Below, one piece after another: positions 2,892 through 14,600 of a DNA stretch of 20,738 nucleotides (its first letter is position 1; every line of letters begins with the position of its first letter). This DNA comes from a virus. The translations under genes were made by a program, and so were the position numbers. The notes beneath the pieces are model-generated. The model was not told the origin of the DNA. It did not search any database and was given only the letters and a program-made list of their open reading frames with translations. Where the stretch lies: the IMG/VR virus record IMGVR_UViG_3300042884_000229, positions 1-20,738 of that record, one strand, 5' to 3'.

Positions 2892-4517
2892 ATGGCTATT
2901 AGAGATATTGAGGTCAGAATTGAGGACCCAGCACAATCCAGTCTGGGTATCACTGTAACCGATATTGATGTTCAAATATCTAGCGTAACCAACGGTGTTG
3001 CATCCAGCGGTCTGGTCACGCTTGTCGCAGCCGCTAATGTGGGTCCACGAGGTCCACAAGGACTCGTGGGACCCATTGGTTTAACAGGTCCTATTGGACT
3101 TACTGGACCGCAAGGACCTCAAGGTATTCAGGGTCCTATCGGCTTAACTGGTCCAATTGGTGTAACGGGTCCTCAGGGTCTTACGGGTGCTACTGGAGCG
3201 ACTGGTGCCCAAGGAGCCACTGGTGCCACTGGTGCTACTGGTCCAATGGGTCCCCAAGGACCTACAGGGTTGACTGGAGAGACAGGACCACAGGGACCTC
3301 AGGGACCAACTGGAGCGACAGGTGCAACTGGACCAACGGGTTTAACAGGCAATAATGGTGCGGATGGCGACCATTATCACACAACATCTACAACTACTTT
3401 AACTCTTGCCAGCAGCGGAACTATAACTCTTTATACTGTTGACCTAGGTTTAGATTATTCTATTGCCCAAACAGTAATTATCGCACATGACCTAGATGAC
3501 TATATGCTTGGTCAGGTTGTTTCTTATAATGAATCTACTGGTGAACTTGTTGTAAGTTTAACATTTAAAAACGGTACAGGTACTTTTTCTTCTTGGAACG
3601 TTAACCTTAATGGTGCTGTTGGTATTCAAGGTCCTGCTGGTCCGACTGGACCAACAGGTGCTACAGGTCCTCAGGGTCCACAAGGCATCCAAGGTTTAAA
3701 GGGTGACACTGGAGATACGGGGGCAACTGGTCCTATTGGTCCGACAGGTGCTACGGGTGCTACAGGAGCCACTGGTCCTCAGGGACCTATTGGTTTGACT
3801 GGTCCTCAGGGACCGCAGGGTGTTACTGGTGCCACGGGTCCTCAGGGACCCGCTGGCGAGGCTGGCGTACCTGCTGGTTCTGTGCAAATGTATGCAGGCT
3901 CAACTATTCCTACTGGATGGTTGTTGTGTGATGGTGCTGCTGTTAGTCGTGCTTCTAATCCTGCTTTGTTTACTGCTATTGGTACAACATATGGTTCTGG
4001 AGATGGTTCAACTACGTTTAACCTTCCTGATATGCGTAGCCGTATGCCTATTGGTGCTGGGACAGGTACGGGGTTAACTAACCGCACTTTGGGTGTTGCT
4101 GGCGGTGGCGAAACTAAAGTTATTAACTCTGCTAACTTGCCGACACATACACATACAATTAATCATGACCATCCTGCTACTTCTAGCGGTACTGAGTCTG
4201 CCGACCATACACATAGCGGTAGCACAAGTGGCGTTAGTGCAAACCACTTACACGCTGTTGGTTTTAACTTTGTTGCACGTGCGGCAGGTTCTTCTGCTTT
4301 TGCTGGCTCGGATGGTACTTTTACATTTAGCATGAACTCAGGACTTCAAAGTGCCGACCATGGACACCCTTTTGGAACAGGTGGTCGTAGTGCTGCGCAT
4401 AGCCATTCTACAGACCTTGCAAACTTTACAGGCTCTAGCGGTGATGGTGGATTTACAAATACACCGCTTGACGTTGTTAACCCGTTCCTTGCTCTCAATT
4501 TTATCATAAAGGTATAA
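2892..4517 (+). CDS. Collagen-like tail fibre with tail-collar domain
   Basis: A 541-residue receptor-binding fibre. Residues 1-50 are a short N-terminal attachment domain. Residues 51-159 form a Gly-X-Y collagen-like shaft and 160-243 a globular beta insert starting DGDHYH; 244-325 are a second collagen-like shaft. Residues 326-400 form a phage tail-collar domain ([23 protein letters not shown], split as [11 protein letters not shown] and [21 protein letters not shown]). The C-terminal part carries six HxH pairs (419, 425, 439, 452, 490, 503) and ends [11 protein letters not shown], the usual collar-type terminus. HxH pairs coordinate iron in the trimeric tip of T4 gp37, so a metal-bound trimer is likely. 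The shaft should trimerise. The TAC-like gene follows after 2 bases. Its position between the terminase subunits is unusual. Confidence 0.9.
3042..3368 (+). repeat. Collagen-like Gly-X-Y coding repeat, block 1
   Basis: About 36 Gly-X-Y triplets (residues 51-159 of the fibre), rich in GPQ, GLT, GAT and GPI. The DNA is a degenerate 9-base periodicity with GGT/GGA/GGC glycines, so it is prone to recombination and length change. Confidence 0.9.
3621..3866 (+). repeat. Collagen-like Gly-X-Y coding repeat, block 2
   Basis: About 27 Gly-X-Y triplets (residues 244-325), separated from block 1 by an 84-residue globular insert. It shares [10 protein letters not shown] and GATGATGATG stretches with block 1, suggesting duplication or exchange between blocks. 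Confidence 0.9.
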
Positions 4518-4944: not shown

Positions 4945-6546
4945 ATGGACCTTCAAGCATTAATAAACGAACGTGAATGGCGTAAATGCCGTGGACCCGA
5001 AAACGCCACACTTGAGGAACAAGTGCAGGCGTTTGTCTACTTTTGTGAAAACTATTGGCATATTAAACATCCTGAGCGTGGACGTATTAAGTTTGAAATG
5101 CGTGAAGCCCAAATTGAAACCATTACGGTGTGGATGTCCGAACGTTATAGTGTTGTTTTAAAAGCACGCCAGATTGGCTTTTCTACATTGGGTGCTGCCT
5201 ATGCCTTTTGGTTGGCTTTCTTTCAACCTGACCGCTTTATAGTTATGTTGTCAAGAACGGAACGTGAGTCCGTTAAGTTGCTTGCTAAATCTAAGTATGG
5301 TTATCGTTTTATTCCTCAATGGATGAAGGAACGTGGACCTTCTCAGATTACTGACCATCAGTTGAAAATGGTTTTTAGCAATGAGTCGGCTATTGAATCT
5401 TTGCCTAGCGGTTCTGACCCTGCTCGTGGTGAGTCTGTGTATTTGGTTATTGTGGACGAATGGGCTTTCTTGCCTAACCCTGAGGAAGCGTGGGCTTCTA
5501 TTGAGCCTATTGCTGACGTTGGTGGTCGTGTGATTGGTTTGTCCACCGCTAATGGGTCTGGTAACTTTTTTCATCAACTGTGGGTTGGTTCCCAAACAGG
5601 AACCAACCAGTTCACAGGTATTTTCTTTCCTTGGTCTGCTGGTGACCGTGACGATGACTGGTATACCGTTAAAGCAAAGAACATGCAACCTTGGCAGTTG
5701 CATCAGGAATACCCACGAAGCCCTGAGGAGGCTTTCGTAAAATCAGGTAACCCTGTTTTTGATATTGACATGTTGGATGCCATGCCAACAATTGAACCCG
5801 ATGTGGGGTATTTGCATGTTTACTCTGACAAGAATTATGAGTTCCGTGATTCTGACGATGGTCCTTTTAGCATTTGGGATTATCCCCGACCTGATGGAGT
5901 ATATGTCGTGGGAGCAGACGTGGCAGAAGGTCTTAGCCATGGTGACTATAGTTCTGCTCATGTTGTTAATGCTGTCACTGGCGAAGTTGTAGCCCACTGG
6001 CACGGACATATAGAGCCAGACCTATTTGGCGAGTTAATGGCTGATATTGGATGGTGGTACAACCAAGCACTGGTTGGTATTGAGTCCAACAACCATGGTT
6101 TAACCTCCCTTAAGGCTGCCCAGAAGATGGGTTACAGAAACCTGTATAGGCAACGTAAGTTATCTTTGCGCAACCCTAGCCAGACTGAAACTTTGGGTTG
6201 GCGTACTACTGCCGCCAGTAAACCTTTGGCTATTGACGAGTTATCGGCTGCTTTAAGAAACGATGATTTAACAGTCTACGACTTTAAAACCATCGCTGAA
6301 TTAAGAACCTATGTTCGCAAGGACAACGGGAAAACCTCTGGGTCACCCCATGACGACAGAACCATTTCTTTGGCTATTGCTAACCAAATGCTGAAGTATG
6401 TATGGCTTCCCGAATTCAGGGGTGACACGATTGTCCCAGCCAATAGTTTAATTTGGTGGGAACAACACCTTATGCATGATGTTGGGGAGGGTAAAATTCC
6501 GATTGGTGCCCATAATATCCGTTCCAGTACACGAAACCCTGTTTAA
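4945..6546 (+). CDS. terL: Terminase large subunit
   Basis: A 533-residue packaging motor and nuclease. N-terminal ATPase: a Walker A variant K73-A-R-Q-I-G-F-S80, Walker B YLVIVDE with D171/E172, and coupling motif LSTANG (199-204). C-terminal RNase H-type nuclease: acidic residues in VVGADVAEG (D325), VGIES (E380) and SPHDD (D470/D471). All expected catalytic residues are present and the length is normal. It works with the portal (7733) to fill proheads. The start has AAAGGT about 10 bases upstream and follows the chaperone gene by 14 bases. It is separated from the small subunit by four genes. Confidence 0.95.
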   Translation: MDLQALINEREWRKCRGPENATLEEQVQAFVYFCENYWHIKHPERGRIKFEMREAQIETITVWMSERYSVVLKARQIGFSTLGAAYAFWLAFFQPDRFIVMLSRTERESVKLLAKSKYGYRFIPQWMKERGPSQITDHQLKMVFSNESAIESLPSGSDPARGESVYLVIVDEWAFLPNPEEAWASIEPIADVGGRVIGLSTANGSGNFFHQLWVGSQTGTNQFTGIFFPWSAGDRDDDWYTVKAKNMQPWQLHQEYPRSPEEAFVKSGNPVFDIDMLDAMPTIEPDVGYLHVYSDKNYEFRDSDDGPFSIWDYPRPDGVYVVGADVAEGLSHGDYSSAHVVNAVTGEVVAHWHGHIEPDLFGELMADIGWWYNQALVGIESNNHGLTSLKAAQKMGYRNLYRQRKLSLRNPSQTETLGWRTTAASKPLAIDELSAALRNDDLTVYDFKTIAELRTYVRKDNGKTSGSPHDDRTISLAIANQMLKYVWLPEFRGDTIVPANSLIWWEQHLMHDVGEGKIPIGAHNIRSSTRNPV

Positions 6547-6993: not shown

Positions 6994-7182
6994 ATGACAT
7001 ACAAAGACGCTTTTCACCGTGCGTTGGCAACTTTTGTTGCTGGAGCAGCATCAGCACCAGTTTCGGCTGCTGTATTAAACCTAGAAACCGTTAAGTTTAT
7101 CGTAGCCTCTGGTTTGGCTGCTGTGTTGAACTTGGTTGTTCGTTGGGCGCAAGTTTATCTTGAGCCAATTGAGGTTCAGTAA
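6994..7182 (+). CDS. Small two-segment membrane protein, r1t-type holin candidate
   Basis: A 62-residue protein with a short charged N-terminus (MTYKDAFHRA), a first hydrophobic segment (about 10-29) and a second (33-52) joined by a short loop with E31 and K34. The opening resembles r1t-like holins, in which a K-D-x-x-x-R-A pattern precedes an Ala/Val-rich segment. As a holin it would open the inner membrane at the end of infection. The C-terminus is acidic. The start follows the previous stop by one base; the stop overlaps the next start as TAATG. Confidence 0.6.
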   Translation: MTYKDAFHRALATFVAGAASAPVSAAVLNLETVKFIVASGLAAVLNLVVRWAQVYLEPIEVQ

Positions 7183-7733
7183 TGGCTCGTAGAAAACCTG
7201 AGGGTATTATTGACGACATTTTCTTGCCAGTGGGCAAGAAAGCCGTCCATGAGGTACGTTCTGGTGTTCGTGAAATTCTTCGTCAATCTATTAAGGCTGC
7301 TGAAAAAAATAAAAAAGCAGAAAAATATGTTGCTTCTAAGCAGGTTCGCCATAAACAAGAACTTAAAGGCATTGAAGAACGAATGATTAGAAACATGGGT
7401 CGTAAAGCCACAAAGGCTGGCAAACAATCTGCTGGTATTAATACTCGTGACACTGCCCAAGTTCAACTTAGTAAAGTTGCTGGAACCAGCAAGCCACGTC
7501 ATTTGATTTCTGCTAAGGATTATCAAAAGAACTTGGGTAAGTTAACTAACGATATTAAGAAGCGTTTTCCTGATGAGGCTTCGTTTCAACGTGCTTTGAA
7601 GGAAGAAGCACGTGATGTTAAAAAGGCTAAGAATGTTTCTCAAGCCCAAAAGAAAGCCCCCGCTAAGAAGGCTCCTGCAAAGAAGGCACCAGCCAAAAAG
7701 GCTGCCGCCCCTAAAACACCTAAAGGTAAATAA
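7182..7733 (+). CDS. Lys-rich protein with RKPEGIIDDI head and AKKAP tail
   Basis: A 183-residue, highly basic protein. The N-terminus reads RRKPEGIIDDIFLPVGKK (3-20), a motif shared with the proteins at 12179, 12496 and, more loosely, 12742. A helical, charged middle part follows. The C-terminus (157-183) has repeated AKKAP units ending KTPKGK, like the tails of histone H1 or bacterial histone-like proteins, which neutralise DNA. A DNA-binding or DNA-condensing virion protein is plausible, and the shared N-terminus may be a docking signal. It sits between the holin candidates and the portal, overlapping both neighbours by TAATG. No known family is recognised. Confidence 0.7.
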   Translation: MARRKPEGIIDDIFLPVGKKAVHEVRSGVREILRQSIKAAEKNKKAEKYVASKQVRHKQELKGIEERMIRNMGRKATKAGKQSAGINTRDTAQVQLSKVAGTSKPRHLISAKDYQKNLGKLTNDIKKRFPDEASFQRALKEEARDVKKAKNVSQAQKKAPAKKAPAKKAPAKKAAAPKTPKGK

Positions 7734-9481
7734 TGGCTAGGAAATCACAGTCTGAGCAAATCAGCAAATACCGTTCTCATCTTGCCGCCTCTAAGAAGTG
7801 GCGTAAAGATGAAGGATACGATGCAACGTGGCGTAGACTAGTTGACATCTATAAGGGTAAGCATTATGACCATTATAGTGACGAGGACAGAATGTTGATT
7901 AACATTTCGTTTTCCACTATTAACGTTATTGCTCCTGCTGTAGCGGTTAACTATCCTAAGATTACTGTTAATGCTCAAAGACCTGATAATGCTGCTAATG
8001 CTGTTATTGCTGAGGCTGTTGTTAACTATTGGTGGCGTTACCGTGACATCCGCACGGAGTTCCGCCGTGCGGTTAAAGACTTGTTGATTGTTGGTCATGG
8101 TTGGGTTAAAACTGGTTATCGTTTTGTTGAAGAATCAGTTATTAACGAAGATGGTGACGACAACGACCCGATGGAAGGTGGAGAACCCACACCCAATAGT
8201 GTTATCCTTCAGGACTCTCCGTTTGCGGAACGTGTTTCCCCGTTTGATGTTTTTGTTGACTCTGATGCTACTAGCATGACTGATATTAAGTGGATTGCTC
8301 AACGTATTCGCCGCCCAATCGGTGATGTTAAAAGTGACAAGCGTTACAATAAGGCAGCCCGTGATGCTGTTGAAGTTATGGCTGTAAGCCGATACACGGA
8401 TGACCCTAGCCAGCGTAAGGTTTACGACAAAAACTATGGTTATGCTGAGATTTGGGAATTTTACGACATCAAGAACCGTACTATGTGTGTCTTTACTGAG
8501 GCTGGTGAACATTTTTTAGTTAAGCCTATGAGTATGCCTTATGCGTTTGGTCATCCGTTTGTTATGTTGCGTAACTATGATGTCCCAGACATTTTTTACC
8601 CTATTGGTGACCTTGAGCAGATTGAACCTTTGCAACGTGAATTGAACGAGACACGTTCGCAGATGATGAATCATCGCAAACGTTTCTCTAGAAAGTATCT
8701 CTATAAGGAGTCGGCGTTTGACCAGTTTGGTCGCAACGCCTTGGAGTCCGATGAAGATAACGTGATGGTTCCTGTTGTTTCTGATGAGGCTCTTTCTAGT
8801 GTTATTGCTCCTATGCCTGCTGTTATTTCTCCTCCTGAGTTTTATAACCAGTCTGAATTGATTAGCAGGGACATTGAGCGTATTACTGGTTTGCCTGAGT
8901 TTATGACTGGTGGTTTGCCTGAGATTCGCCGTACCGCTACTGAGGTTTCCGCTATTCAGGATGCCGCTAACGCCCGTACTGCAGATAAGTTGGCTATTGT
9001 TGAAATGGCTATTTCCGAGGTGGGTCGCCGCATGTTGCTTCTCGCCCAACAGTATATGACTGGTGAGCAAGTTGCACGCCTTATGGGCAAGGACGGTGAA
9101 CCTATTTGGATTACTTATGACCGTGAATATCTTGAGGGCAACTTTGACTTTGAGGTAGTTGGTGGCTCTACGCAACCCAACAACGAGGCTGTCCGTAGAC
9201 AGATGGCTTTGCAAATGGTTGACGCTATGGCTCCTTTTGCTGGTGCTGGTATTGTTAACATGCAAGAGTTGGCTGGCTATGTTCTTCAGCAGGGCTTTAA
9301 TGTTAAGAACCCAGAGAAGTTTTTGTCCATGCCTGAGCAACCTATGGCTACACCTGCTGGTGCCCCTGCCCCCGAACAGTTGCCTGCTGGACCTGAGGGT
9401 GGTATGCCCGCCCCTCAAGGCGGCATACCACCTGAAATGTTGGCTATGTTGCAAAACGCTGGTGGGCAACCACCACTATAA
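7733..9481 (+). CDS. Portal protein
   Basis: A 582-residue protein with the features of podovirus-type portals. It has an N-terminal YKGKHYDHYSDEDRMLINISFSTIN region, a helical AVVNYWWRYRDIRTEFRRAVKDLLIVGHGWVKTG core (cited in part) and a DLEQIEPLQRELNETRSQMMNHRK stretch. ITGLPEFMTGG and RRTATEVSAIQDAANARTADK (cited in part) follow at about 385-420 before a Pro/Gly/Gln-rich tail. Twelve copies would form the ring through which DNA passes, docking terminase outside. Length and its place after terL and before scaffold and capsid genes agree. The start is coupled to the previous stop (TAATG). Confidence 0.9.
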   Translation: MARKSQSEQISKYRSHLAASKKWRKDEGYDATWRRLVDIYKGKHYDHYSDEDRMLINISFSTINVIAPAVAVNYPKITVNAQRPDNAANAVIAEAVVNYWWRYRDIRTEFRRAVKDLLIVGHGWVKTGYRFVEESVINEDGDDNDPMEGGEPTPNSVILQDSPFAERVSPFDVFVDSDATSMTDIKWIAQRIRRPIGDVKSDKRYNKAARDAVEVMAVSRYTDDPSQRKVYDKNYGYAEIWEFYDIKNRTMCVFTEAGEHFLVKPMSMPYAFGHPFVMLRNYDVPDIFYPIGDLEQIEPLQRELNETRSQMMNHRKRFSRKYLYKESAFDQFGRNALESDEDNVMVPVVSDEALSSVIAPMPAVISPPEFYNQSELISRDIERITGLPEFMTGGLPEIRRTATEVSAIQDAANARTADKLAIVEMAISEVGRRMLLLAQQYMTGEQVARLMGKDGEPIWITYDREYLEGNFDFEVVGGSTQPNNEAVRRQMALQMVDAMAPFAGAGIVNMQELAGYVLQQGFNVKNPEKFLSMPEQPMATPAGAPAPEQLPAGPEGGMPAPQGGIPPEMLAMLQNAGGQPPL

Positions 9482-9490
9482 GGAGTTATT

Positions 9491-10252
9491 ATGGATGATG
9501 ATGTAATGGTTCCGTGGGGATACGGCGGAAGAAAAATACGTCTTAAAGATATTGAAAATGACCCCATTTTTAAAGATATTGCTCCGATGTGGCAAAAGCG
9601 TATTTTAAAAATGATTCAAGAAAACCCAACTATTGGTGTTGGTGCCAGTGCCCGACCAGAACCAGAAGTTGTTAAATTGTTTAATGAACGTTATAAGCCT
9701 TTTACTGGAAAGTTGGATTATAACGACCCTAAGGTTTATCAAGCCTTTAAAGAGGGTAAATATAAAGAATATAACGGTCAAATATATAAGTTAAAAGCAG
9801 GTAAGGCTGCTGCCGCCACCCCTAATGCCAGTTGGCATACGGGTGGCTTTGCTGTTGATTTAGTAGGTGACACAAAGTTGGCTGGGGAAATAGCAGACCG
9901 ATATGGTCTTAGACAGGTTACGTCCAATAACGAAACTTGGCACTTTCAACCTAAAGGTATGCCTGACGGTAGACGAGTTATTGACTTTTTAAAATCTGAA
10001 TATGGTTATGACATTCCAGAAGAAGGTTTGCCTGTAGAGGCTTTGGCATATATTAACGATAATTTTGCCAGCAACTCCCCTGTCCATCCTAAAAAGGTTT
10101 TGGACGACATACGCAAACTTATTGGCAAAGACATGTTGCATAACAGGTTTAAACGCCCTAAGGATAATCCTTTGAGTGTAAAGAAACTGGAACATGCAAA
10201 TAGACGACCTACACGGACGTATATGCCTTCTAATTTTGGACCAGTTCGGTAA
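9491..10252 (+). CDS. M15-type peptidase, endolysin candidate
   Basis: A 253-residue protein with the zinc-peptidase signature of the M15 (VanY/DD-carboxypeptidase) family: SWHTGGFAVD (H116, D123) and NNETWHFQP (E148, H151), i.e. three zinc ligands and the catalytic Glu. A region of about 100 residues precedes the core and a basic C-terminal tail of about 80 residues follows it; the latter could bind the cell wall. The reaction would be cleavage of peptidoglycan stem peptides. An AAGGAG Shine-Dalgarno precedes the ATG. It lies between portal and scaffold rather than in a separate lysis block, so it may be the endolysin working with the membrane proteins at 6810-7182 or a virion-borne wall hydrolase. 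Confidence 0.8.
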   Translation: MDDDVMVPWGYGGRKIRLKDIENDPIFKDIAPMWQKRILKMIQENPTIGVGASARPEPEVVKLFNERYKPFTGKLDYNDPKVYQAFKEGKYKEYNGQIYKLKAGKAAAATPNASWHTGGFAVDLVGDTKLAGEIADRYGLRQVTSNNETWHFQPKGMPDGRRVIDFLKSEYGYDIPEEGLPVEALAYINDNFASNSPVHPKKVLDDIRKLIGKDMLHNRFKRPKDNPLSVKKLEHANRRPTRTYMPSNFGPVR

Positions 10253-10254
10253 AG

Positions 10255-10276
10255 TAGAACAACTATACCATATATA
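10255..10276 (+). promoter_or_regulatory. TAGAACAA-N6-CATATATA element (putative late promoter)
   Basis: TAGAACAA (10255-10262), CTATAC, CATATATA (10269-10276), three bases after the M15 gene stop. The scaffold ATG lies 34 bases downstream and has its own Shine-Dalgarno (CTAGGAG). It would drive the scaffold and capsid unit. Confidence 0.65.
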
Positions 10277-10309
10277 GAGCAACCATTAGGACTCTAGGAG
10301 AAAAAAAAT

Positions 10310-11107
10310 ATGAGCGATGAAATCGCACCCGTATCTGATGTGGAACCCAATGATGTTGGGTCACCCGATTCCAGTGAGGTAAATCAAACCGCAGACATTC
10401 CCGTATTGAATGTTGACGAGTATTCGGATTACCGAATTCCCGTCAAACTAGATGGGGAGGAACTACAGGTTCCGCTTTCTGAGGCTATTGCTGGTTACCA
10501 GCGTCAAGCAGATTATACTCGCAAGACACAGGAACTCGCAGAGCAAAGGCAATCTTTACAGTTTGCTTCTACTCTGCAGACTGCTCTTGAGAATGACCCT
10601 GCTGCTACCATTGACTTACTCAGTCGTCATTATGGCATTTCACGTGCTCAGGCTCGTGAAATGGTTGATGACATGGGGTTTGAATCTGAGGATTTGGACC
10701 CTGTGGATAGGAAGATGCGTGAGTTGGACACCCGTATAGCGCAGTTTGAGGAATACCAATCGCAACAACAAATTGAGCGTGAGGTTCAACGCCTGCAGTC
10801 CAAGTATTCGGATTTTGATATAACAGAAGTTGTCCAAGCCGCAATTAAGGCTGGGACAAATGATTTGGAAGCAGTTTATAAACAAATCGCTTTTGATAAG
10901 TTTTCTAAACAAAGAGAATTAGAAACTGCCGCTTTACAGCAGAAGCAACTTCAGGAATCTAAGGTTGTGGAATCTAAACGTCAGGCGGCTGTTGTTGAGG
11001 GTGGGGCTTCTGCCACATCATCTACAACGAATGATTCTTATGAGTCTATTAACTCTATCAGTGATGCGTGGGCTGCAGCCAAGAGACAATTAAACGCTAA
11101 TTTTTAA
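10310..11107 (+). CDS. Scaffolding (capsid assembly) protein
   Basis: A 265-residue acidic, Gln/Glu-rich protein lying directly before the major capsid gene. The segment YRIPVKLDGEELQVPLSEA, then YQRQADYTRKTQELAEQR, is typical of podovirus scaffold proteins. Residues 130-180 and 200-220 have coiled-coil character, and the C-terminus (about 243-265, ISDAWAAAKRQLNANF) is the short helical, basic end that usually binds coat protein. The N-terminal 40 residues are low-complexity and acidic. A CTAGGAG Shine-Dalgarno and A-rich spacer precede the ATG, suggesting high expression. Confidence 0.85.
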   Translation: MSDEIAPVSDVEPNDVGSPDSSEVNQTADIPVLNVDEYSDYRIPVKLDGEELQVPLSEAIAGYQRQADYTRKTQELAEQRQSLQFASTLQTALENDPAATIDLLSRHYGISRAQAREMVDDMGFESEDLDPVDRKMRELDTRIAQFEEYQSQQQIEREVQRLQSKYSDFDITEVVQAAIKAGTNDLEAVYKQIAFDKFSKQRELETAALQQKQLQESKVVESKRQAAVVEGGASATSSTTNDSYESINSISDAWAAAKRQLNANF

Positions 11108-11125
11108 TAACTAGGAGAAAATAAA

Positions 11126-12091
11126 ATGGCTGGAAATAGTAACTTTGATGCAATTCTTTCAACAACACTTGCGAACTATCGTGACCAGTTGACAGATAAC
11201 GTATTTACGGCTCGTCCGTTGACCTACCACCTTATGGATAAGGGTCGTATTCGTATGGTAAACGGCGGTACGAAAATTGTTGAACCATTGATTTACGGTC
11301 AGAACAGCACCGTTAAGCCTTACAGTGGTTACGACTCTATTGACCTTACACCACAAGAAGGAATCTCGGCTGCTGAATTTGAATGGAAGCAGTACGCTGC
11401 ATCTATCGCAATCAGCGGTATTGAAGAAGCCAAGAACAACGGCGAACAAGAAGTTATTAACTTGTTGGAAGCCAAAATCATGCAGGCTGAAGAATCACTT
11501 CGTGAAGGCTTCAACCAGATGTTCTTTGGTGACGGAACCGACACCCTTGGTGCTGGTGGTACAAACTCAGGTAAGTCTTGGAACGGTCTTGGAAACTTGA
11601 TTGAATCAGGCAACACTGTTGGTGGTATCAACTCGGCTTCAGGTCAGGGTAACGACTGGTGGCGTTCATACGAGCAAAACACCGCTGGTGCTTTGACTCT
11701 CGCACAAATGGCAACCGCATACAACAGCGTGTCTGTTGGTAACGACCATCCCGATATGGTTCTTACTACACAAACATTGTTTGAAAAGTATGAGTCGTTG
11801 CTGCAACCACAGTTGCGTTACACAGACACCAAGACAGCAGATGCAGGCTTCCAGAACCTTTTGTTCAAGTCAGCACCAGTTGTGTATGATGTCCATGCAC
11901 CTGCAGGAACAATGTTCTTTATTAACTCAAAGTACATTTCGCTTGTTGGTCACTCGGAGAAGTGGTTTGCAAACACCCCGTTTGTACGCCCTGAGAACAT
12001 GGATGCCCGTTACGCACTTATCATGTGCTACGGTAACTTGACTATCCGTAACCGTGCAAAGCAAGGCAAGTTGACGGCTAAGACCGCCTAA
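11126..12091 (+). CDS. Major capsid protein
   Basis: A 321-residue protein of the HK97-fold coat type seen in podovirus-like phages. It has the N-terminal NFDAILSTTLANYRDQLTDNVF, an extended-loop-like segment (40-100), a helix-rich region (EEAKNNGEQEVINLLEAKIMQAEESLREG, cited in part), a Gly-rich loop (137-172) and a core ending in FVRPENMDARYALIMCYGNL (cited in part). It follows the scaffold gene by 18 bases with CTAGGAG at good spacing and is closed by a strong hairpin. Codon choice differs from its neighbours: by my reading all but one of its 25 Asn codons are AAC. This fits very high expression. Confidence 0.9.
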   Translation: MAGNSNFDAILSTTLANYRDQLTDNVFTARPLTYHLMDKGRIRMVNGGTKIVEPLIYGQNSTVKPYSGYDSIDLTPQEGISAAEFEWKQYAASIAISGIEEAKNNGEQEVINLLEAKIMQAEESLREGFNQMFFGDGTDTLGAGGTNSGKSWNGLGNLIESGNTVGGINSASGQGNDWWRSYEQNTAGALTLAQMATAYNSVSVGNDHPDMVLTTQTLFEKYESLLQPQLRYTDTKTADAGFQNLLFKSAPVVYDVHAPAGTMFFINSKYISLVGHSEKWFANTPFVRPENMDARYALIMCYGNLTIRNRAKQGKLTAKTA

Positions 12092-12107
12092 TTGCTGATG
12101 ACAGGAT

Positions 12108-12139
12108 AATGGGAGAGGACTGTTGGGTCCTCTCCCATT
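12108..12139 (+). terminator. Terminator after the capsid gene
   Basis: A perfect 13-base stem (12108-12120 with 12127-12139) and a 6-base loop TGTTGG lie 16 bases past the capsid stop. Only three T directly follow the stem's CCCA, so release may be partial and allow some read-through into the basic-protein genes downstream. Confidence 0.8.
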
Positions 12140-12178
12140 TCTGTATAACATTATTATTTAAAACACTAGGAGTTTAAT

Positions 12179-12493
12179 ATGCCAAATGCACGTAAACCAG
12201 CAATTACTGGAATGGCAAAACCACACGGAATCGTTGATGACGTTGTGGTTCCGTTGGCTAAAAAAGTAATTGGGGCTAGGACAAAGCCTAGTCGTAATGC
12301 AACAAAGAAAATGATTGTTGCAGCAAAAAAGCGTAACGCTTATGAAACAATTACAAAAGGTCAAAATCCATTTGCTACTGGATTTAAAAGCGATGAAGAT
12401 GTCGCTAAACTTATAGGTAAAAGCAAGTATTACAAGAAAAATACTAGCCGTAAAGAAGTTTCTAATGTTCGTAAAAAAATGAAGGGTAAATAA
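12179..12493 (+). CDS. Small basic protein A of the RKP-x-GIxDD family
   Basis: A 104-residue, Lys-rich protein. Its N-terminus RKPAITGMAKPHGIVDDVVV shares RKPAITGMA(K/R)P-x-GI-x-DD with the next gene and KPxGIxDD with the gene at 7182. The rest is basic with few hydrophobic stretches and ends KKMKGK. A CTAGGAG Shine-Dalgarno precedes the ATG. It is the first of five basic-protein genes after the capsid terminator. Function is unknown; a capsid-targeted DNA-binding protein is a reasonable guess from charge and location. Confidence 0.65.
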   Translation: MPNARKPAITGMAKPHGIVDDVVVPLAKKVIGARTKPSRNATKKMIVAAKKRNAYETITKGQNPFATGFKSDEDVAKLIGKSKYYKKNTSRKEVSNVRKKMKGK

Positions 12494-12495
12494 TC

Positions 12496-12738
12496 ATGGC
12501 TGCAAGAAAACCAGCAATTACAGGAATGGCACGCCCCGAAGGCATTAAGGACGACATCGGCAAATACATCTTTAAGAAAGCAGCCAAGGCTACTTCAAAA
12601 AAGCGTGAAAAGGCTTATGTTAAGATGCAGAAGATGGGTCCTGTTGGTGACGATAAGAAGTTTATGAAACAGTCTGACAAGTTTGAAAAGTTGGGCAAGC
12701 GTGAAGTTTCTTATCGTGCAAAGTCACGAGGACGATAA
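12496..12738 (+). CDS. Small basic protein B of the RKP-x-GIxDD family
   Basis: An 80-residue basic protein that repeats the N-terminal block of its upstream neighbour (ARKPAITGMARPEGIKDDI) and then diverges into a Lys-rich helical stretch (KKAAKATSKKREKAYVKMQ). The two genes are probably an old tandem duplication. It begins 2 bases after the preceding stop, with AAGGG about 10 bases before its ATG. No known family is recognised. Confidence 0.65.
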   Translation: MAARKPAITGMARPEGIKDDIGKYIFKKAAKATSKKREKAYVKMQKMGPVGDDKKFMKQSDKFEKLGKREVSYRAKSRGR

Positions 12739-12741
12739 TTA

Positions 12742-13143
12742 ATGGTTAATCGTAAACCTAAAGGTTGGGACATCATGGATGATGTTAGCAACTTTATAAA
12801 AAGAGACAAAACTGGTGTTACAAAAAAAGTTAGTGACGCTGGAAACAAACTCGCAAAAGGCACTACTGGTGCTATGAAGTATGCTTTTGGGGACCCGAAA
12901 AAGGGTTGGCAAAACGTAGCCTCTGAGTCTGCCATGTGGCTTGTGCCTTATGGTAAAATCGGTAAGGGTGCTAAAGCGGTTGTTAAAAATCGTAAAGTTA
13001 TTGGCAAGGTTGCTAGTGGTGCGGCGCAAACTGCTGTTGCTTTAACTGCTAAACCTGCCGCCGATAAGGCTTTGGCTAAAACCCGTAAACCTAAAACTAC
13101 AAAACATATGGTTTCTGGTAAGAAGCCACCTAAAAGAAAGTAA
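12742..13143 (+). CDS. Small basic protein C
   Basis: A 133-residue basic protein. The N-terminus NRKPKGWDIMDDVSNFI keeps RKPxG...DD(V/I) of the family but with three extra residues inside the motif. The middle holds an Ala/Gly-rich, moderately hydrophobic stretch (about 36-100, including SAMWLVPYGKIGKGAKAVV) and the C-terminus a Lys/Pro-rich tail (KTRKPKTTKHMVSGKKPPKRK, split). GAGGA precedes the ATG by about 10 bases. Possibly an internal virion protein; function unknown. Confidence 0.6.
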   Translation: MVNRKPKGWDIMDDVSNFIKRDKTGVTKKVSDAGNKLAKGTTGAMKYAFGDPKKGWQNVASESAMWLVPYGKIGKGAKAVVKNRKVIGKVASGAAQTAVALTAKPAADKALAKTRKPKTTKHMVSGKKPPKRK

Positions 13144-13150
13144 GGTTGTT

Positions 13151-13594
13151 ATGCCTAAAGTTAATGGTAAAGAGTTTCCTTATACTGCTAAGGGTAAGCG
13201 AGATGCTGCTAAATACGCTAAAAAGGAAAAAGATAGTTTTAGCGGTGTTAAAGCCAAAAAACCAGTTAATAAAAAATCACAGGCTGGAGATTTAAGTTCA
13301 GAACGTGGCGTGATGCGTAAGGCGGCAGCATCAAATCGCAGTAATCGTAAATCATCTGAAGGCTTGCCTACAGGTTTAGTTACTGTAACCCACAGAGATA
13401 AAAAGGGAAAGTTAAAAAACAGCACCGTAAATCGCTCTTATGGTTCCACAATGCCATCAAGCAATTATTACTTTACAGGTAAAAAGAAAACTGCTTCAAC
13501 GTCAAAACTTGGACCCGCTAAAGGTAAGCCACAGGTCAAAACGGTTAAACCGTCCAAGCGTACAATAACAGCAAAGAAACTGAAAGGTTACTGA
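13151..13594 (+). CDS. Small basic protein D (MPKVNGKEFPYT type)
   Basis: A 147-residue, very basic protein beginning MPKVNGKEFPYTAKGKRDAA, a start I recognise from small head-region proteins of many phages; their function is not established. The middle segment (GLVTVTHRDKKGKLKNSTVNRSYGSTM, cited in part) could form a small beta structure, and the tail is Lys/Thr-rich. AAGG lies 6 bases before the ATG. It lacks the RKPxGIxDD motif of its neighbours. Confidence 0.65.
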   Translation: MPKVNGKEFPYTAKGKRDAAKYAKKEKDSFSGVKAKKPVNKKSQAGDLSSERGVMRKAAASNRSNRKSSEGLPTGLVTVTHRDKKGKLKNSTVNRSYGSTMPSSNYYFTGKKKTASTSKLGPAKGKPQVKTVKPSKRTITAKKLKGY

Positions 13595-13595
13595 T

Positions 13596-14306
13596 ATGGC
13601 TAAGTTGCCAATTGATGATATTGTTAAAGCGGTAATGAAACAAATTGGTTCTAAACCAAACCAAAAAGTGCGTTACGACTTTGCCAAGCAAACTGGAACT
13701 ATGGGTAAGAAAAACCCTAGCAGTAAGGTAACTGGCAAGAAGGCGGCTGAACGTGCCCGTGCAGCCGCACCAAAGTCCTCTAGCGGTGCTAAACAATCAC
13801 GCCGTAAAGGTACCAGCACTACTGGTCGTCCTGTTGGGCGTATTGCTCAGACTCGTCCTGAGCGTAAACGCCGTGACTTTGTTTCTACCAAGAATACTGG
13901 TATTACCACTAACGATTCTCAGCGTAGGGCTGCGAATCGGGAAGCAAACAAATTCCTTAGAATGAAGGGTGAGGGTGGAGCCAAAGGTAACAAGTCTACT
14001 AGCAAGGACATGCCAGTGGAAGTCAAGGGTTCTATTATTAAAGTGCCGAACAAGGCTACTTTGCGTGCACCTAAGCCAGAGCGTAGTTCTTATGAGGCGG
14101 ACCAAATGCGTAGAGAGTTCATGGCGGATTTGAACCGTGGTTTTGGTGGTAGCAAAAAACCAACCAAAAAGGCTGCTTCTGAAAAGACACCTAAGGGTAC
14201 TAAGCCTGCTACGAAGAAGGCTCCTGTTAAGCCAACCTCTAAGGCTAATACAAAACAGTCATCTAGTCGCCCTCAGGCTCGCACACCTAAAAAACCTAAT
14301 AAATAG
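13596..14306 (+). CDS. Basic protein E with histone-like tail
   Basis: A 236-residue, Lys/Arg-rich and low-complexity protein. It starts MAKLPIDDIVKAVMKQIG, which keeps a PxDDI core weakly like the RKPxGIxDD family. Residues 40-100 are Arg/Lys/Ser/Ala-rich, and the last 60 residues hold KKAP and KTPKG units like the tail of the protein at 7182. The composition suits condensation of packaged DNA or binding to it. Its TAG stop forms the first three bases of the TAGAACAA element at 14304. No family is recognised. Confidence 0.65.
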   Translation: MAKLPIDDIVKAVMKQIGSKPNQKVRYDFAKQTGTMGKKNPSSKVTGKKAAERARAAAPKSSSGAKQSRRKGTSTTGRPVGRIAQTRPERKRRDFVSTKNTGITTNDSQRRAANREANKFLRMKGEGGAKGNKSTSKDMPVEVKGSIIKVPNKATLRAPKPERSSYEADQMRREFMADLNRGFGGSKKPTKKAASEKTPKGTKPATKKAPVKPTSKANTKQSSSRPQARTPKKPNK

Positions 14307-14325
14307 AACAAGCGGGCTATTTATA
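14304..14325 (+). promoter_or_regulatory. TAGAACAA-N6-TATTTATA element (putative late promoter)
   Basis: TAGAACAA (14304-14311), GCGGGC, TATTTATA (14318-14325). It begins at the stop codon of the preceding gene and ends on the A of the following ATG, with no Shine-Dalgarno. Proposed promoter of the tail-gene unit. Confidence 0.65.
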
Positions 14326-14600
14326 TGAGTATTAAAGGTTCTGTGCCTGCGCACGCTTATTATGGTGCACCAGTTTCGGGTAACCGTCCTGCAGGGATGC
14401 AGGGCGGTTCTCGTCTTGCATCGGGGTCTGGACCTTATTTGGGGCGTGGAAACAAATGTTCAGGCAAAGATGACACCTGTGAAGGCAACCGTGTCAAAGA
14501 CGAGGCTTTTTGCGCTGGTCACCTTAGGTCCCTGAAAGGTGCCAAAACCGCCCCTGTTTTGTCCGAGCCTACAGTAGAGGTGGTTGAAGATGGCGTTTAA
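14325..14600 (+). CDS. Small Cys/His protein, possible zinc binder
   Basis: A 91-residue protein with a Gly/Ser/Ala-rich first half and the pattern C45-x6-C52-x10-C63-x2-H66, consistent with one zinc site. The surrounding residues (KCSGKDDTCEGNRV, FCAGHLRSL) resemble small CCCH proteins found near neck genes in phages. The C-terminus is acidic. It has no Shine-Dalgarno; its ATG is the end of the TAGAACAA element. It overlaps the start of the next gene by 11 bases, so the two are coupled. Confidence 0.65.
   Translation: MSIKGSVPAHAYYGAPVSGNRPAGMQGGSRLASGSGPYLGRGNKCSGKDDTCEGNRVKDEAFCAGHLRSLKGAKTAPVLSEPTVEVVEDGV

Follow-up and report, generated by a model that had tools for sequence, protein, structure and literature searches.

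The locus and its gene content

The question raised by this locus is why several small basic proteins, encoded around the portal and capsid genes of an uncultured phage, begin alike and continue differently. The window, i.e. the whole stretch of 20.7 kb (20,738 nt) that was analysed, is an IMG/VR virus record from an uncultured phage group. A capsid search of viral contigs yielded hundreds of relatives and a capsid search of genome contigs gave no match; the closest annotated phage capsid proteins aligning full-length exhibit 25-41% identity. The window encodes the small terminase (gene 1967), the terminase large subunit (TerL; 4945..6546, plus strand), the portal protein (7733..9481, plus strand; phrog_156, E 1.2e-31), a scaffold-like protein (10310..11107, plus strand; phrog_3927) with the conserved C-terminus SISDAWAAAKRQLNANF, the major capsid protein (11126..12091, plus strand; phrog_9953, E 1.3e-76) and a conserved small protein (14325..14600, plus strand), followed by gene 14584, which, together with gene 15309, represents the tail genes. 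Two slots are delimited in this map: slot 1 between TerL and the portal protein, and slot 2 between the capsid protein and gene 14325.

Some other genes of the window should be mentioned here. A minus-strand pair of overlapping genes (589-1014 and 905-1312), coding for very basic proteins (pI about 11) without the common start described below, belongs to known phage families (phrog_7595; DUF5872/phrog_14910). The product of 2892-4517, with Gly-x-y collagen-like repeats and a tail-collar-like C-terminus, is a probable tail fibre. An M15/VanY-like peptidase gene (9491-10252), located between the portal and scaffold genes, is present in 5 of the 153 loci surveyed (the window, L003, L004, L008 and L141), and it was therefore regarded as an accessory gene at an unusual place. 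The segment KVLDDIRKLIGK near the C-terminus of its product was considered as a further copy of the common start and rejected; since the DD pair is not kept in the orthologs (KVLDE, HVLDN), it was read as chance.

A common start of basic proteins in the window

An earlier note on this DNA had described a short N-terminal block shared by four basic proteins. The peptides are all present in the products concerned—MARRKPEGIIDDIF (gene 7182), MPNARKPAITGMAKPHGIVDDVV (12179), MAARKPAITGMARPEGIKDDIG (12496), MVNRKPKGWDIMDDV (12742) and MAKLPIDDIVKAVMKQ (13596)—and the shared motif, hereafter the head, is real, far beyond chance and more widespread than first noticed. Among the 26 window proteins, 4 have its loose version, P-x-G-[ILVMW]-x(1-3)-DD-[ILV], within their first 25 residues; whole-protein shuffling (20,000 trials) gave a mean of 0.0006 such proteins and a maximum of one.

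The basic genes of both slots are encoded on the plus strand. Slot 1 holds the gene of a 183-residue protein (7182..7733) with a short head, KPEGIIDDIF, at residues 5-14 (head DNA about 7182-7259). Slot 2 contains two proteins with long heads, one of 104 residues (12179..12493; MPNARKPAITGMAKPHGIVDDVVVPLAKKV, head DNA about 12179-12280, head HMM E 2.8e-15) and the other of 80 residues (12496..12738; MAARKPAITGMARPEGIKDDIGKYIFKK, head DNA about 12496-12594, head HMM E 1.1e-15). The common start is longer here than the block originally delimited, because the two proteins also share RKPAITGMA, a part of the conserved PAI box described below. The 133-residue protein (12742..13143) has a divergent short head, RKPKGWDIMDDV, which is the weakest of the set (head HMM E = 8.7, not significant alone); the protein, whose body contains a conserved GDPKKGW segment, was counted as head-bearing mainly because its orthologs keep starts of the KPKGW or KPQDLRDII type. 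Concerning the 236-residue protein (13596..14306), its PIDDIV had been taken for a possible relic, but the head present there, KLPIDDIVKAVMKQ, is of the short type lacking the PAI box and is conserved in the orthologs from L003, L004, L005, L018, L140 and L141. The 147-residue basic protein of the same slot (13151..13594), the N-terminus of which is weakly similar to phrog_33179, has no head and serves as an internal negative control, indicating that the head is not simply a trait of the basic genes located there.

A different segment, resembling AMWLVPYGKIGKGAK or AAMALFPGVG, was seen in the product of window 12742-13143 and in L068, L111, L154 and L157. Many relatives have it in the final or penultimate protein of slot 2, whether this has a head or not, and it possibly represents a common segment of ejection proteins.

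The head module among the relatives

The survey of 153 loci (the window and its relatives) covered 202 distinct basic proteins, 123 of which exhibit a head-like start, 59 in the long and 64 in the short form, a few of the latter (e.g. L028_6043 and L063_4743) being probably due to chance. The head is a two-part module consisting of a basic [K/R]xPAI box and the element G-Φ-(x)-DD-Φ, after which a strongly amphipathic helix follows. According to the head HMM alignments, the long form reads roughly M-A-x-K-[KR]-K-P-A-I-x-G-[LM]-(HS or xKP)-x-G-I-x-DD-I-x-x-P-x-A-K-K-V; the short form is the same head without the PAI box. The strict motif P.G[IVLM].DD[IVLM] was found 14 times in 634,000 ORF residues (the window and the first 80 relatives), in all cases N-terminally, within about 20 residues from the start of plus-strand ORFs. 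The DD[ILVMFA] element is present in residues 1-35 of 63 of 119 basic proteins, compared with 3.2 ± 1.7 after shuffling the same residues, and in residues 36-70 of just one of the 119. As a side observation, a 468-residue slot protein (L068:1892-3298) has a DD helix in three tandem internal copies (GMADDAAKVALKSAARGVADDAAKAALKSAAGGVVDDAAEVALKGAAKK).

The 14 residues counted from the second D have a helical moment of 0.51 (0.27 ± 0.013 when shuffled) and are not amphipathic as a strand, and in both structure models a helix begins at or beside the DD pair, with low confidence. The amphipathic stretch and the modelled helix start lead to a plausible picture, in which a flexible basic leader would be followed by a capped helix and then by a variable body. 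With a net charge of about +1.6 in 14 residues and its strong helical amphipathicity, such a helix could also be imagined to enter the host membrane or to join a DNA-delivery conduit after ejection; this is, however, very improbable, the mean hydrophobicity being low (0.03) and the GI.DD capping box with the PAI/HSQG boxes being more specific than a cationic amphipathic helix of that kind needs.

The profile search against phage proteins that the earlier note had proposed gave many matches in the relatives and none at E 10 among 50,697 records of cultured phages, with the method being blind to a tag as short as the 10-residue one of T4. The 7182 protein and the ADP-ribosyltransferase (ART)-like body described below were likewise absent from the cultured phages searched, and the head scan of bacterial genome contigs for a host or prophage found nothing. 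Pfam and PHROGs offered a convincing family for none of the head-bearing proteins. Neither a published account of such a head, with the terms tried, nor virion proteomics for this uncultured group was found.

Conservation at the protein level and the diversity of bodies

A DNA cassette shared at the gene starts by recombination only was ruled out, since the heads of one genome differ in their codons. In 189 ortholog pairs, residues have changed in 29% of head and 45% of body positions, whereas synonymous change in the unchanged residues is equal (32% in the head and 34% in the body); the head is better conserved than the body in 164 of 188 pairs, which are not independent of each other.

The 86 heads analysed in 42 loci are borne by 33 body clusters, this being an upper estimate because Lys-rich bodies defeat BLAST. 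One and the same body may carry a long or a short head depending on the phage: the body cluster of the 7182 protein is shared with L004, L102/L140 and L103, where the head is long, so that KPEGIIDDI of the window corresponds to SAITGLHSQGIIDDI in L004 and L103. In the latter two loci, PAITGLHSQGI is carried by the gene adjoining the 7182 ortholog. Heads of one genome found on different bodies resemble each other (0.442) beyond label shuffles (0.375 ± 0.020), which is what a shared partner would impose; the likeness among orthologs is higher (0.526), indicating that descent accounts for much of it.

Most bodies are Lys-rich and without a family match. A body with a conserved domain, restricted to relatives and absent from the window, was found in L004, L093, L095, L103, L140 and L151, with head-bearing representatives located upstream of the portal gene (L004:1316-1990, L093:10297-10827, L103:6274 and 7531, L151:539, L140:2526). 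The segments HGSP and YIGKVPRS are kept in it. Its first structure model was poor (pLDDT 50.8); that from another lead sequence contained a block with pLDDT 66-90 over residues 41-160 (mean 69.8 overall). The best Foldseek matches in the PDB were rifampin ADP-ribosyltransferases and an Rhs domain (E 0.03-0.11), and VIA-align gave a best Z of 7.2, i.e. under 8, among the 50 matches listed, nearly all of which we take to belong to the ADP-ribosyltransferase superfamily. As judged from the predicted fold, this body is a probable ART-like domain. In another subclade, the slot holds less basic proteins of 463-491 residues, which start with MAAWDDILRASLKAAGKA and similar sequences and have the DD helix start. 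The globular ART-like body and these proteins of other make-up together indicate that the heads stand on different kinds of bodies.

It should be pointed out that ordinary paralogy might account for this pattern. An ancestral basic virion or DNA-binding protein would have been duplicated often, with the Lys-rich low-complexity bodies diverging and the functional N-terminal helix being kept, so that the head would be the active part—for example, a minor structural element binding the capsid or portal—and no cargo label. The tandem arrays, the many orthologous families with a common gene-start sequence and the heads being most alike between orthologs would agree with such a history, and Lys-rich bodies may have diverged beyond the reach of BLAST. 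At least one body is, however, a conserved globular domain of the predicted ART-like type, others are proteins of 463-491 residues of different make-up, and a single body can carry the long or the short head, so that paralogy seems an unlikely explanation.

Position, gain and loss of the head genes

The 123 heads are distributed between the capsid gene and gene 14325 (88), between TerL and the portal gene (34) and just upstream of TerL (1), these counts taking in contigs that end inside a slot. The view that the genes flank the portal-capsid block was thus borne out, 122 of the 123 head-like N-termini lying in the two slots around the portal, scaffold and capsid genes. When 20 whole records were scanned in six frames with the head profile, 13 of them gave 27 matches in total, a few of which were placed in slots by hand; the slots of three relatives checked contain no heads. 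The head is a real module, conserved at the protein level, present on many body types, with the periodicity of an amphipathic helix and nearly confined to two slots. That it represents a conserved docking-like N-terminal module of head operons can be considered almost certain.

Genes for host takeover are typically small, highly basic and present in variable sets. The head-bearing proteins share these features, and they could be intracellular regulators or anti-host DNA-binding proteins of a late operon; the head would then have its partner among host proteins or in the phage replication machinery, and the products would never enter virions. This appears improbable for genes with 122 of 123 heads inside the head-assembly block, unlike early host-takeover genes.

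On the tree of 66 distinct capsid proteins, the presence of heads requires at least 3 changes (6 by parsimony). Such a patchy distribution indicates that the head is dispensable for the assembly of the phage head and represents an accessory trait gained or lost. The sets of head genes differ from relative to relative: L003, about 98% identical to the window in DNA, has one extra head gene of 540 bases (1067-1609), which lies precisely between the 7182 ortholog and the portal gene. The sequence TAAATAATGGC stands at both its junctions, which may point to microhomology at gene boundaries as the route of gain or loss. As in this pair, the bodies behave as accessory cargo with quick turnover.

Candidate docking partners and comparison with known systems

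The common head, the divergent basic bodies, the position in the head operon, the selection at the protein level and the many body types are the features to be expected of a tag for sorting or docking. As to the idea of the earlier note that the head is such a tag, comparable to that of the T4 internal proteins, the head/body pattern, the slots and the protein-level selection support it in part, the parallel with T4 being a good one; loading itself is what we infer, along with docking to a head protein, cargo inside the virion and ejection. A T4-like encapsidation or docking tag that loads cargo into the phage head is the explanation we favour, with somewhat better than even confidence. The flexible basic stretch with the PAI box and the DD-capped amphipathic helix would bind one common site of the assembling prohead, for which the scaffold, capsid or portal protein of the same operon is the most likely place. 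In this way, a wide range of small basic proteins, joined in relatives by the ART-like enzyme, would be loaded into the phage head, where they could condense or accompany the DNA and, after ejection, act in the host.

The scaffold-like protein (10310) and the capsid protein (11126) are the candidate docking partners. The scaffold C-terminus of the window phage has the conserved S-I-S-D-A-W-x-x-A-K-R-Q, to which the head helix exhibits a weak likeness, the best cases ranking in the top 0.01-0.2% of windows compared. Since the similarity is weak and the scaffold subtypes track phylogeny, mimicry of the scaffold C-terminus by the head is not claimed.

In T4, the internal proteins IPI, IPII and IPIII and the ADP-ribosyltransferase Alt are targeted to the prohead core by short N-terminal propeptides; the first 10 residues of IPIII suffice, foreign proteins can be loaded, and the tag is cut off by gp21 (PMC9026906, PMC3012670, PMC7411985). 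As there (PMC9026906, PMC3012670), one short N-terminal sequence is found here on divergent small basic proteins, and the repertoire varies among close relatives, as L003 and the window document. The T4 tagged cargo includes Alt (PMC9026906, PMC3012670), to which the predicted ART-like body of the relatives (Foldseek E 0.03 at best) may be compared. In contrast to T4, the genes of the present group are ordered as in podoviruses, and its records do not exceed about 40 kb; its head, composed of the PAI box and the GI.DD helix, differs in sequence, covers 15-30 residues and is found in as many as five genes of a slot.

A search of 10 records of 30-40 kb for a prohead protease of the S78 or ClpP type gave none; that for the S77 (T4 gp21 family) protease gave no match either, with its control being silent too, and is hence uninformative. 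Residues 4-318 of the capsid protein align to positions 6-328 of the 329 of the phrog_9953 profile, so its N-terminus is not extended in comparison with the family, and no capsid propeptide is apparent. The lack of an S78/ClpP-type protease in those records and of an extra N-terminal segment in the capsid protein suggests that the tag is probably retained, a gp21-like cleavage of the head being unlikely. We do not class the head system with that of T4 itself; by analogy, it probably works like it.

In SPN3US/phiKZ, the targeting of head-packed ejection proteins is ascribed to N-terminal segments (PMC7411985). These would be comparable to the present heads in their N-terminal position and putative targeting role, but are propeptides of 100 or more residues that are cleaved, in giant phages. 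The C-terminal helices by which phage scaffolds bind the coat are also short and acidic-capped at a terminus; they occupy, however, the opposite end and have weak profile similarity to the head. Encapsulin cargo-loading peptides, too, are short and dock different cargo in an HK97-fold shell, but they are mostly C-terminal and operate in cellular compartments.

Implications for small phages

With more reserve, as a tentative possibility that falls short of even odds, a protease-independent cargo-loading code may be envisaged for small phages of the podovirus-like type. It would comprise an N-terminal docking peptide that can be exchanged, an open and swappable set of cargo including ART-like enzymes as well as histone-like Lys-rich chains, an origin independent of T4 and a genome-specific partner. 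If the docking-tag explanation is right, short encapsidation tags with swappable cargo would have arisen also outside the T4-like phages, in a clade that is abundant and uncultured. Phage proteins delivered into the host could then be found from sequence alone, any gene with a head start being a candidate for cargo, and what small phages inject besides their DNA would become directly testable; the head would also offer a compact tag for putting proteins into capsids.
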